A DNA stretch of 64,000 nt from Kangiella shandongensis (GTDB lineage: Bacteria > Pseudomonadota > Gammaproteobacteria > Enterobacterales > Kangiellaceae): positions 1 through 64,000 of the forward strand of contig NZ_JACNML010000006.1 of the NCBI RefSeq assembly GCF_020005365.1, in the 5' to 3' direction. The notes beneath the pieces were generated by a model. That model saw nothing but the letters and a program-made list of their open reading frames with translations, was not told where the DNA came from and made no database searches. A program made the translations under genes and the position numbers. Shown here piece after piece: positions 19,810-26,439 of this stretch; within the stretch, counting starts at the first letter, position 1; every line of letters starts with the position of its first letter.

Positions 19810-21498
19810 ATGAGCCTAGGCCCATTTTTCAAATCGAAGCGTTCCATCTTGTTGTGGATAGCTCTTATTAGTGCTGTCCTCTCAATTGTTTTTTATCAGC
19901 AATACCATTACTTTGACACTCACTACAGTATTCTGCCGCAGGCAGGGAAAGCACCAAGCTATGCGAAAGATACCAGCCAGTTACTGGTAAAGCGACAACA
20001 CCCAAACGGATTTTTTGTTAATAACCCCGATCTCTTTACCGAACCCTCGGTGTTGAATCTGGAAAGTCTGCGCCTGTCCCGTTACGCCGTTGAGACGCTG
20101 GATCAGCTAGGGACTTTAAACCATATAAATAAAAAAGCACTAACTCAGTTCGTATTAAGAAACTATAAGGCACCCAGTAATGCCATAGGTAACCTGAAAG
20201 GATTTTCTGCGCTTCCAAACAGTTCTGTTAATATTCGCGCCACCATGGACTCAGTGATTATCCTCAAGCATTTGAACGCGCTTGAACAGGTCGACAGCAA
20301 TGCCATTGCACAACTCATATTAGCCTATCAAAATGACGACGGTGGCTTCTGGGATCCCGGCTATCCCGAGTTTGAGCAACAATCCACCGTACAGGCGACT
20401 TCTTTTGCTATACGGACATTACTCCACCTCAATAAAGTAGACCTGCTCAGTACGATGCAACAACAGAGTATCAATCAATTTATTCAACGCTCCTGGTCGA
20501 GTGACATTAGAGCTTTCGCACCGTTTCCTGAGCATCCAGCAGTTAGCAGTTATGACAGCTTTCGTGCATGGATCAGCGTTTATTATTTGCCTATAAACCA
20601 GGGAGACCCACAAAAAATCAACAATATTCTTCACTTGCCAGAACTGCTGACAACGCTCAATACCACCTTTTTAACCACCGAGCAGATTTACAGTGAAGAA
20701 GGGGAATCACAACGTAACTCATTAAAAGCGTCATACCTTATCGTCTGGATGTTAAGCGAGCTTGACCAGTTGGAGCAGACCCCAGCCTGGAACATTATCC
20801 GTTTCATCAAAGACTATCGTGACTCCCATGGCGGCTTCTCCGGTGACATCTACTCGGTTTACTCGGTGGTCAAGACTTTGAAATACCTGTCACCCACGCG
20901 AATGTCAAATCAGTTACTGATATATCAGGTGTTAACTTACACGACACTTGGATTAATGGTGTTGAGCCTCCTTGCTTTATTTATCATTCGAGGTGAAGTT
21001 CAGCGTAGAAGACGTAGTGCCCTGGTGCACAAAGCACAAACGGATCGCCTGACCGGCCTGCATAACAGGGAGTTTTTAGAGAAGCGCTATGTCAGTTATC
21101 AGACCAATAACTCGCACATCGCACTTTTATTACTGGACGTCGATTACTTTAAAAATATCAATGACAACTATGGCCACCTGACTGGCGATGAAGTACTGAT
21201 CGAGCTTTCTCATTTACTCAAAGACAATATCCGAAAGACCGACACTTTAGCGCGTTGGGGGGGCGAAGAATTTGCCATACTTTGTCCGGCAACAGAGCCC
21301 GGTCAGGCCAAAACTTTTTCAGAAAAAATGCGTAACCTTGTCGCCAATCATCAGTTCAGCAAAGTAAACTCCATCACTTGCAGTATCGGCGTTTCCTGTT
21401 CACATCAAAATGAGTCATTAAAAAATTTATTTGCTCGTGCCGATAAAGCCCTGTATGACTCAAAACATAATGGCCGCAACCGTGTAACCTACGTTTAA
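19810..21498 (+). CDS. Membrane diguanylate cyclase with prenyltransferase-like alpha/alpha toroid sensor
   Basis: A 562-residue protein. One membrane helix (about 13-30) is followed by a large extracytoplasmic helical domain (about 45-365). This domain carries repeats of the kind in protein prenyltransferase beta subunits and squalene cyclases: QNDDGGFWDPG with STVQATSFAIRTLLHL, and YRDSHGGFSGD with YSVVKTLKYL. A second helix (about 372-397) leads to a GGDEF domain with DVDYFKNINDNYGH, an inhibitory RxxD (475-478) and active GGEEF (484-488). It should make cyclic di-GMP in response to an extracellular ligand. The ligand is unknown. The toroid assignment rests on pattern recognition. Confidence 0.8.
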   Translation: MSLGPFFKSKRSILLWIALISAVLSIVFYQQYHYFDTHYSILPQAGKAPSYAKDTSQLLVKRQHPNGFFVNNPDLFTEPSVLNLESLRLSRYAVETLDQLGTLNHINKKALTQFVLRNYKAPSNAIGNLKGFSALPNSSVNIRATMDSVIILKHLNALEQVDSNAIAQLILAYQNDDGGFWDPGYPEFEQQSTVQATSFAIRTLLHLNKVDLLSTMQQQSINQFIQRSWSSDIRAFAPFPEHPAVSSYDSFRAWISVYYLPINQGDPQKINNILHLPELLTTLNTTFLTTEQIYSEEGESQRNSLKASYLIVWMLSELDQLEQTPAWNIIRFIKDYRDSHGGFSGDIYSVYSVVKTLKYLSPTRMSNQLLIYQVLTYTTLGLMVLSLLALFIIRGEVQRRRRSALVHKAQTDRLTGLHNREFLEKRYVSYQTNNSHIALLLLDVDYFKNINDNYGHLTGDEVLIELSHLLKDNIRKTDTLARWGGEEFAILCPATEPGQAKTFSEKMRNLVANHQFSKVNSITCSIGVSCSHQNESLKNLFARADKALYDSKHNGRNRVTYV

Positions 21499-23890: not shown

Positions 23891-25816
23891 TTATTTTTTA
23901 TTCTCTATCCAGTTTGCAATTTTCTCATTCAAGACAGACATTGGCACAGCCCCACCTAGAAGGACCAGATCATGAAACTCTTTAATATTGAATTTCTCTC
24001 CCAGTGCTTCTTTTGCTTTCGCACGCTGTTTAACAATATTCAGCATACCGAGTTTATAGCCCAGAGCCTGACCCGGCCAAGCCATGTATCGCTCAATTTC
24101 TGAGACTACATCAGAATGAGCCGTTCCCGTGGTACTTTCCATATAATCGATCGCTTCCTCACGAGTCCATTTTTTATGATGAAGACCGGTATCCACCACC
24201 AGACGAACCGCACGAAATAGTTCCGCTTTCAAACGCCCCAGATCTCCATACGGGTCATCCTCATACATGCCCATCTCCCAGGCTACTAGCTCGGAATATA
24301 GTGCCCAGCCTTCAACATAAGCGTTATAAGGTGCGATACGGCGCAACATTGGCAAGCTTTCCTGCGCCATGTTTAAGGCAATCTGCCAATGATGTCCAGG
24401 GTTGGCTTCGTGATAGGTTAAGGTTTTTAGATCAAATTTAGCATTCGCTTTCATGTCACGTAAATTGATCCAGTAGATGCCAGGCTCAGAGCCATCCAAC
24501 GGTGGTGGTGTATATTGTCCTCCAGGCGCACCGTCCTGACGCTCAATCGGAATCCGCCGAATTTCCACCTCATAAGGAGGTATCGTAGCAAACTGTGTCG
24601 GCATCACTTTATTGATGTCATCAAGCATGCCATTTAAGTCATTGAGTAACTTCTGGCGGCCTTCATCAGAATCTTCATAGATGAAACGGTCTTCTTCATT
24701 TAACGCCGCCATTCGCTCGCCCACGGAGCCCTTTTCATAACCTTCAGACTTTAAAATGGCATCCATTTCGTCCGTGATTCTTGCTACCTCATCAAGTCCT
24801 ATCTGATGCACTTCTTCCGGAGTCAGATCGGTATCACCTAATTGACGTACAGCATCACGATAAAACTCTGCACCATTTGGTTGAACCCATATTCCTGACT
24901 CTTCTGGTGCTTTATCCAGCAAACCTTCCATTGTTTTGGCGAGCGTTTTATAGGCAGGATAAACCGTCGTTTTGGTCAGGCTAACGGCGTCTGAGACCAT
25001 GGCTTGTTTTTGCTTGGCTGGTAACTCCAACGTCTCAAGTTTATCTCTTAGATTGTTCACTAAGGCATGCTGCTCTGGCTCAGCTTTAACAAAGCCATAT
25101 AAGAAATTCAGAGCACCTTTGATAATAATTTTAGGAGGGATCCAACCCTGCTTTGCATCCGCTTTAACCTTCTCGTCCACGCTGTTAATCAAGTCACCAA
25201 ACTGTTCGAGTCGGGCAAGATAGTCTTGAGCATTTTGTGCCGTTTTTATCGGGTGATTATTTTGCAACAAATTTGGCACATCAATCGCTGGCCCATTAAT
25301 CTGACTAACGATAAAGGGAGTATGGCCCATCCAAAGATCGATATAGCCAATGTCAAAGTTAGGCTCCCCTGAATAATAACGCGTCAGATTAGCAACCACC
25401 TTACGGTTTTCTTCACCCTGCACACTATCCGCTTTAAGCCCCTGCAGTGTTTTTGAGTAAGTTCTAAGCTCTTCTCTCAGCGCAGCTTCGCTCTCAGGGG
25501 AAAATTCGGGAAGCCTATCCTGATAATATCCTCCTGCCATGTCTTCGCTGACACCATACATGGACGCATTCATTGGTCGTGCTTTAAACAAGGCAGTTGT
25601 AGCCTGTTCGAATACCGCTTCAGGTTTTATCGCAGCCGTTTTATCCGCCTGCTTCTCAGGCTGGCTAACAGCCTCGTCTTGCGATGTTTCTTGAGTCTGT
25701 TGTTCTTGTGTTTGCTCTTCCTGCTCGCAACCTGTGGTTAATAATGCGGTAGCAACCAGCAAGCTTGTAAGGGTTGCAGGAACCCCTTGAATGCGTTTAG
25801 ACATAGACATTGACAC
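23891..25816 (-). CDS. DUF885 family lipoprotein, predicted metallopeptidase
   Basis: A 641-residue exported lipoprotein: signal peptide with lipobox LLTTGC (Cys near residue 29), a Gln/Glu-rich linker, then a DUF885 domain. The domain's zinc-type motif YHEANPGHHW (near residue 475) and the region VEGWALYSELVAWEMG (near 510) are present. DUF885 proteins resemble M32-like and other gluzincin peptidases. Three in-frame ATGs start the frame (25816, 25810, 25804). It lies among tryptophan catabolism genes and other proteases, consistent with peptide use as carbon source. Confidence 0.88.
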   Translation of the reverse strand: MSMSMSKRIQGVPATLTSLLVATALLTTGCEQEEQTQEQQTQETSQDEAVSQPEKQADKTAAIKPEAVFEQATTALFKARPMNASMYGVSEDMAGGYYQDRLPEFSPESEAALREELRTYSKTLQGLKADSVQGEENRKVVANLTRYYSGEPNFDIGYIDLWMGHTPFIVSQINGPAIDVPNLLQNNHPIKTAQNAQDYLARLEQFGDLINSVDEKVKADAKQGWIPPKIIIKGALNFLYGFVKAEPEQHALVNNLRDKLETLELPAKQKQAMVSDAVSLTKTTVYPAYKTLAKTMEGLLDKAPEESGIWVQPNGAEFYRDAVRQLGDTDLTPEEVHQIGLDEVARITDEMDAILKSEGYEKGSVGERMAALNEEDRFIYEDSDEGRQKLLNDLNGMLDDINKVMPTQFATIPPYEVEIRRIPIERQDGAPGGQYTPPPLDGSEPGIYWINLRDMKANAKFDLKTLTYHEANPGHHWQIALNMAQESLPMLRRIAPYNAYVEGWALYSELVAWEMGMYEDDPYGDLGRLKAELFRAVRLVVDTGLHHKKWTREEAIDYMESTTGTAHSDVVSEIERYMAWPGQALGYKLGMLNIVKQRAKAKEALGEKFNIKEFHDLVLLGGAVPMSVLNEKIANWIENKK

Positions 25817-25953
25817 CTAGTTAGTAAATATTCAGTCTACCGATTATTAACAATTCAAACGCAAATGTCACATCCAGAAAAGCCAAGTGACTAGCGCAGT
25901 GGCTTTTTTTGCCTATAATGCAGCTATGATCTTCAATTTTGAGAATTCGAACT

Positions 25954-26439
25954 ATGCCATCTTTTGATATTGTGTCCGAAGTGGACAAACATGAAATTAC
26001 CAATACGGTAGATAATGCGAACCGCGAATTAAGTACACGCTTTGATTTTCGTGGTGTCGAAGCCAGCTTTGAACAGTCAGGCGATACCGTCAAAGTAACG
26101 GCCGAAGCAGACTTCCAAGTCGATCAAATGATTGATATTTTCTACCGTTGCTGCACTAAACGTAGTATTGACGTTAATGCCTTAGACATCACCGACGAAG
26201 CTACACATTCCGGTAAAACCTTTTATAAAACGATAACGTTTAAACAGGGGATTGATAAAGAAACGGCCAAAAAGCTGGTTAAGTTGATTAAGGAAACCAA
26301 GCTGAAAGTACAAGCTTCCATTCAGGGTGAACAGGTTCGTGTCACTGGTAAGAAACGCGATGATCTGCAAACCGCTATGGGAACTGTACGTCAGGCAGAG
26401 TTAGGCCAGCCATTTCAGTTTAATAACTTTCGAGATTAA
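25954..26439 (+). CDS. yajQ: YajQ family nucleotide-binding protein
   Basis: A 161-residue UPF0234 protein. It starts [20 protein letters not shown] and contains [14 protein letters not shown], both family hallmarks. Members bind cyclic di-GMP or other nucleotides in some bacteria, where they affect gene expression. I chose the ATG at 25954 as the family start. It is divergent from the DUF885 gene. A TATAAT at 25914-25919 may be its -10 box, with no clear -35. Confidence 0.92.

Follow-up and report, generated by a model that had tools for sequence, protein, structure and literature searches.

Introduction

The zinc ligands of protein prenyltransferases are an Asp-x-Cys pair and a His, found where inner helices 5 and 6 begin. 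A limited number of folds, such as PAS, GAF, Cache and CHASE, supply most of the sensor domains of diguanylate cyclases, according to a 2022 review on the sensory domains of cyclic di-GMP signalling proteins (PMC8846402), and GGDEF domains and terpenoid cyclases appear as separate entries in PMC5735121. The present work concerns a gene of the marine bacterium Kangiella shandongensis located in the window, that is, the whole stretch of 64,000 nucleotides analysed (contig NZ_JACNML010000006.1, positions 1 to 64,000), the product of which carries a prenyltransferase-type toroid and a GGDEF domain in a single polypeptide. This protein is probably a one-component membrane diguanylate cyclase in which a complete alpha6/alpha6 toroid, having lost the known catalytic residues, would serve in the periplasm as a ligand receptor. 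A toroid of this type as the outer part of such a protein would enlarge the range of sensor folds, possibly also that of ligand classes, and the toroid cyclase would exemplify the recruitment of an enzyme scaffold for a receptor role.

Results and Discussion

Domain Organisation and Fold of the Predicted Sensor

Hydropathy, Pfam and the structural model agreed in placing two membrane helices around the toroid and, behind them, a GGDEF domain with intact GGEEF and RxxD motifs (Table 1). Both the GGDEF match and the match to PF00432 (Prenyltransferase alpha-alpha toroid) lie above their curated cut-offs, and both families were matched at E ≤ 1e-3 by each of the 19 intact proteins that were aligned (14 of the 15 copies of the genus plus those of genomes G191, G358, G408, G122 and G858), with a best Prenyltrans value of 1.2e-18. 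The GGDEF half is an ordinary diguanylate cyclase domain by its sequence, and synthesis of cyclic di-GMP is predicted for it.

The AlphaFold model of the toroid showed a closed ring of six helix pairs spanning the whole domain. In a structure search with this model the nearest folds were all isoprenoid-handling, with Rab geranylgeranyltransferase, farnesyltransferase and squalene-hopene cyclase within the top 50, and complement C3 and C5 chains were also found. A profile search of PDB sequences further backed the PF00432 toroid, and a few of the 19 members matched TED_complement (three) or, at E ≤ 1e-3, SQHop_cyclase_C (two). No named sensor family (Cache, CHASE, PAS, MASE etc.) was found over the toroid in Pfam or NCBIfam: at E ≤ 10 the Pfam matches of the window protein were only Prenyltrans, GGDEF-like families and a sub-threshold Cas10 palm, and all matches to its 21 NCBIfam families begin at residue 372 or later, leaving the toroid uncovered. 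A first-pass annotation made from the sequence alone had described a diguanylate cyclase with this architecture and an alpha/alpha toroid, and both statements were confirmed; neither of the outcomes that it named as contrary, a different predicted fold or a named sensor domain over the region, was found.

The N-terminal flank of the first membrane helix, MSLGPFFKSKRS, contains three basic residues and lacks acidic ones; the second helix is followed by RGEVQRRRRSALVHK. From these basic inner flanks and the positive-inside rule, the region between the helices (residues 45-363) is predicted to be periplasmic, with the N-terminus inside. The same annotation had called the sensor extracellular; this location is predicted from the pair of membrane helices and the basic residues on their inner sides.

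Table 1. Features of the toroid cyclase gene in the window.
Feature	Position	Strand	Evidence
Toroid-GGDEF diguanylate cyclase, 562 amino acids, stop included	19810..21498	+	Open frame; full-length homologues in 14/15 Kangiella-genus copies and in other Gammaproteobacteria
Membrane helix 1, residues 12-30 (contained in model helix 10-39)	19843..19899	+	Hydropathy; full-length model; basic N-flank MSLGPFFKSKRS
Alpha/alpha toroid of six inner and six outer helices (predicted sensor), residues 45-363	19942..20898	+	Pfam PF00432, 47.7 bits (curated cut-off 26.5); AlphaFold model; structure search; PDB sequence profile search
QNDDGGFWD, residues 174-182, best-conserved stretch of the toroid	20329..20355	+	8/9 residues invariant in 19/19 sequences (exception, residue 176)
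Membrane helix 2, about residues 375-393, part of one long helix 366-413 reaching the GGDEF domain	20905..21048	+	Hydropathy; full-length model (408-417 with low confidence)
GGDEF diguanylate cyclase domain, residues 409-558	21034..21483	+	PF00990, 148.4 bits (curated cut-off 23.8)
RKTD, RxxD inhibitory site, residues 475-478	21232..21243	+	Sequence; RxxD in 19/19
GGEEF active-site motif, residues 484-488	21259..21273	+	Sequence; GGEEF in 19/19

Conserved Residues of the Toroid

In the 19 aligned sequences 39 of the 319 toroid positions are invariant. Eighteen of these are polar, and each of the eighteen lies either in an outer-to-inner loop or among the eight residues that begin an inner helix; the invariant fraction among polar residues was 18/95 on the outer-to-inner side, 0/45 on the other side and 0/36 in the outer helices (p 7e-4, post hoc). 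With the definition applied first (a stretch running from 6 residues ahead of each inner-helix start to 7 beyond it) the figures were 10/84 against 8/235 (p 0.01). A single one of the 70 outer-helix positions is invariant. The invariant set includes N72, N83, T145, S304 and Y348 as well as eight charged residues, five acidic (D74, E78, D147, D177 and D182) and three basic (R91, R143 and K306), which share the same side. In prenyltransferases the zinc and substrate site sits on the corresponding side. Ser304-x-Lys306 is present in all 19 sequences, as is a Ser, Thr or Asn at position 349.

The clustered acids, bases and serine, with the Ser-x-Lys pair, could form a catalytic site, in which case the toroid would still be an enzyme and the protein would be bifunctional; a weak Pfam GH127 score on a different toroid-type protein (L179) in the class survey points the same way. 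Against this, the zinc ligands are missing from the toroids, and so are the DxDD motif (0/19; the sole DxDD, in L017, lies at residue 557 within the GGDEF part) and the CGEQ thioester motif of complement and alpha-2-macroglobulin (absent in 19/19). Moreover, no other enzyme family was matched over residues 45-363 in Pfam or NCBIfam, and a domain enclosed by a pair of membrane helices and fused to a second-messenger enzyme has the layout of a sensor, so that a bifunctional enzyme is considered quite unlikely. Slightly less probable still is a toroid acting as a mere dimerisation or spacer module, with the enzyme controlled otherwise (by expression or by RxxD feedback): purely structural toroids exist, and part of the genus does without the gene, but a spacer would need fewer than the 39 invariant positions observed, of which 18 are polar and share one side.

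The toroid of the window protein is free of cysteine. Where inner helix 3 starts, its group has an alanine (QATSFA); a cysteine (K-C-T-S-F-A or similar, often SCLKC) takes this place in the second group of the genus (L025, L018, L026, L019, L017, L022 and L023) and likewise in the toroids of L105-L108 and L127. A redox or metal difference between toroid subfamilies is possible.

Toroids with Other Outputs and the Nature of the Proposed Ligand

A Prenyltrans search of 369 genomes of the class gave 48 match rows in 44 genomes, the row of the window having the best E-value. Forty-six rows were examined, the remaining two being one in a frame already examined and one for the G408 cyclase. Among the rows examined, GGDEF was found in the same frame as Prenyltrans only in the five toroid-cyclase members. 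Thirty of the 42 other rows have a DxDD motif in the best-matching frame; ten of the 42 were scanned with Pfam, a scan that left out L170, L181 and L182 (also without DxDD in the best-matching frame), and no signalling output domain was detected in these ten at E ≤ 1e-3. Squalene-cyclase-like toroid regions are also found with CarboxypepD_reg, CARDB or VWA domains in large proteins of other Gammaproteobacteria (L172:1858-4338, L184:1860-7523 and L159:1-3441); judged from their sequences, these toroids are possibly non-enzymatic surface modules.

At E ≤ 1e-3 Prenyltrans was matched in the genome of the window (G000) by the toroid cyclase alone, and G122 is the sole toroid-cyclase genome, out of five in the class sample, with an additional match, which is to a DxDD protein. 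A self-made hopanoid is therefore unlikely as a general ligand, although this survey, being a profile search in which the first look was loose, gives an indication rather than proof. This bears on the view that the toroid has retained the substrate class of its enzyme relatives and senses a lipid, isoprenoid or terpenoid, such as an outer-leaflet polyprenyl phosphate or a steroid- or hopanoid-like compound. In agreement with such a view, the closest folds all handle isoprenoids, R91, R143 and K306 could hold a phosphate, and the full-length model places the toroid at the membrane surface. However, the five invariant acids lie on the same side as these basic residues, the Arg/Lys positions that bind the diphosphate in prenyltransferases are not basic here by sequence register, and a squalene-cyclase-like second match is lacking in G000, and lipid sensing of this kind appears rather unlikely.

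Binding of a protein or peptide partner, in the manner of the complement thioester domain or of the prenyltransferase peptide site, with the toroid reporting the state of the partner, is rated lower again, as unlikely. The complement matches in structure and in Pfam, and the cyclase-like modules in L172, L184 and L159, argue for it; against it, no conserved neighbour outside Kangiella is fit to be the partner, and the invariant residues are confined to loops and helix starts of one side, with the outer helices almost devoid of them.

Since the invariant residues on the presumed binding side of the toroid are polar and charged, a plain terpene is less likely as the ligand than a polar compound of mixed charge, which might resemble a sugar, an amino acid or an osmolyte or be the polar head of a lipid. 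In our reading the toroid is a receptor whose mouth is polar and of mixed charge, and a lipid bound through its head group would still be compatible with it. The lipid, terpenoid or peptide ligand suggested by the first-pass annotation stays hypothetical, the prenyltransferase, squalene cyclase and complement motifs being absent, G000 giving no sign of a squalene cyclase and the presumed binding side being polar and charged. As to the stimulus, a polar small molecule has an even chance; a lipid with a polar or phosphate head is a clearly weaker candidate, a peptide or protein is improbable, and the absence of any ligand for the toroid more improbable still.

Several points weigh against a receptor of the proposed kind. 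The full-length model has a predicted template modelling score of 0.66, and its predicted local distance difference test score falls below 50 at the helix-GGDEF junction (408-417). Which helices are inner and which outer was decided from what is known of prenyltransferases rather than from coordinates, and the enrichment definition covering the whole outer-to-inner side was picked once the first result was known. Residues Q174, N175, D177 and W181 belong to a GGF-type repeat turn and may be conserved for folding. Finally, the gene is absent from 5 of the 20 genomes of the genus and broken in one, which indicates that it is not essential, but accessory and sometimes lost.

In the preferred scheme, that of a periplasmic toroid receptor, the ligand would bind at the opening of the ring, which the inner helices line with their N-terminal ends, and its binding would alter the packing of the dimer and shift the long second helix. 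The paired GGDEF domains would then convert GTP to cyclic di-GMP, and product feedback would act at the RxxD site. Ligand, dimer and sign of the effect are taken here from the general behaviour of diguanylate cyclases, and only the anatomy from the protein itself.

Distribution and Genomic Context

When 61 genomes of relatives were surveyed with the N-terminal 397 residues as query, the sensor was found in 15, all among the 20 genomes of the genus Kangiella; it was detected neither in 17 genomes of other genera of the family nor in 24 of other families. The toroid cyclase was present in 5 of 369 genomes of the class sample (that of the window included) and in 1 of 398 of the phylum sample, the window's own. 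It was found in 2 of 96 genomes of the family of G408, 2 of 3 of that of G122 and 1 of 3 of that of G191; the genus of G408 gave three full-length matches in 22 genomes and two more genomes matching the GGDEF part only. A scan of genome contigs with the whole protein was filled by GGDEF matches, and among the best 80 loci the sensor was carried only by L024 (the Kangiella spongicola homologue), L025 and L026, that collection thus holding at least three sensor loci. Viral contigs scanned with the sensor alignment yielded 39 pattern matches and no confirmed relative, and a tblastn search of 72,556 plasmids revealed no copy of the toroid cyclase.

Toroid and GGDEF distances were correlated (r 0.82, 0/2000 permutations), as would be the case for an old fusion passed on as a unit. 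Domain order, toroid fold, the intact GGDEF motif set and the co-inheritance of both parts are demonstrated at the level of sequence and prediction.

In all 15 carrying genomes of the genus the gene is flanked by a hemL-like aminotransferase gene and a short-chain dehydrogenase gene. The five genomes without the cyclase keep both flanks, with 1.3-1.9 kb of other, differing genes between them; these are varying small genes (L133-L137), some of which presumably encode XRE-type antitoxins, a RelE-like toxin and a REP-associated transposase. Genes may be exchanged particularly often in this slot. The copy of G010 (L010 / L109), the closest relative with 72 % identity, is interrupted by an in-frame TAA into two frames of 215 and 284 amino acids, suggesting that the gene is in the course of being lost there. 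Outside the genus, no query gene of the window except the cyclase was found at loci L123-L126; the neighbours vary between lineages outside Kangiella and give no functional hint and no conserved candidate partner.

A DUF520 gene (window 25939-26439), which we take to be YajQ, of a family said to bind cyclic di-GMP, starts 4.4 kb downstream of the cyclase. It was rejected as a specific partner, being present in 20/20 genomes of the genus, whether or not they carry the cyclase. A DUF885 protein of 641 amino acids with a lipoprotein-like N-terminus is encoded at window 23891-25816 on the minus strand; its gene lies near the cyclase locus in some genomes of the genus and is not in the stretches compared from others. 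The window's genome (2.8 Mb) has 14 GGDEF matches, 13 besides the toroid cyclase, by which count its predicted cyclic di-GMP network is sizeable.

Novelty and Comparison with Known Systems

No description of a toroid-GGDEF architecture was found in the open PMC literature, as judged by titles and the starts of abstracts, and the words prenyl, toroid, terpene and squalene are absent from the main text of PMC8846402, the supplementary Pfam-partner tables of which lie outside this check and could name Prenyltrans. The statement of the first-pass annotation that no sensor of this kind had been described agrees with these searches within their limits. The PF00432-GGDEF pair may already be visible, undiscussed, in domain databases. 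As far as could be searched, the protein is a diguanylate cyclase with a sensor fold previously undescribed in such a role. Whether it represents the first bacterial receptor family on a protein-prenyltransferase toroid (an ex-enzyme fold without catalytic residues, outside the membrane, coupled to cyclic di-GMP and offering a conserved polar cavity to a ligand class new to cyclic di-GMP signalling) is evenly balanced in our judgement. As a compact, soluble and confidently modelled domain, the toroid is suited to direct expression and screening, and it could serve as a modular input in engineered cyclic di-GMP circuits.

The membrane helix, outer domain, membrane helix and cytoplasmic GGDEF domain of the window protein, with GGEEF and RxxD intact, follow the plan of membrane-bound one-component diguanylate cyclases, but its predicted outer domain is a prenyltransferase-type toroid instead of a Cache, CHASE or PBP-like sensor. 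With the thioester domain of complement C3/C5 and alpha-2-macroglobulin it shares structural matches, a toroid predicted to lie outside the cell and to lack prenyl chemistry. The toroid repeats with GGF/QW-like turns recall squalene-hopene and class II terpene cyclases; however, squalene-hopene cyclases have two domains and some 650 residues in total, whereas the window protein has one toroid of about 320 residues. The closest relatives in fold are the prenyltransferase beta subunits, foremost that of Rab geranylgeranyltransferase (type 2). In contrast to these, the window protein is bacterial, its cysteine-free toroid is set between two membrane helices and fused to GGDEF, and the zinc-ligand positions hold Ser-x-Lys and Ser/Thr/Asn in 19/19 toroids, in a register given by the sequence repeat rather than by residue-level structural alignment.
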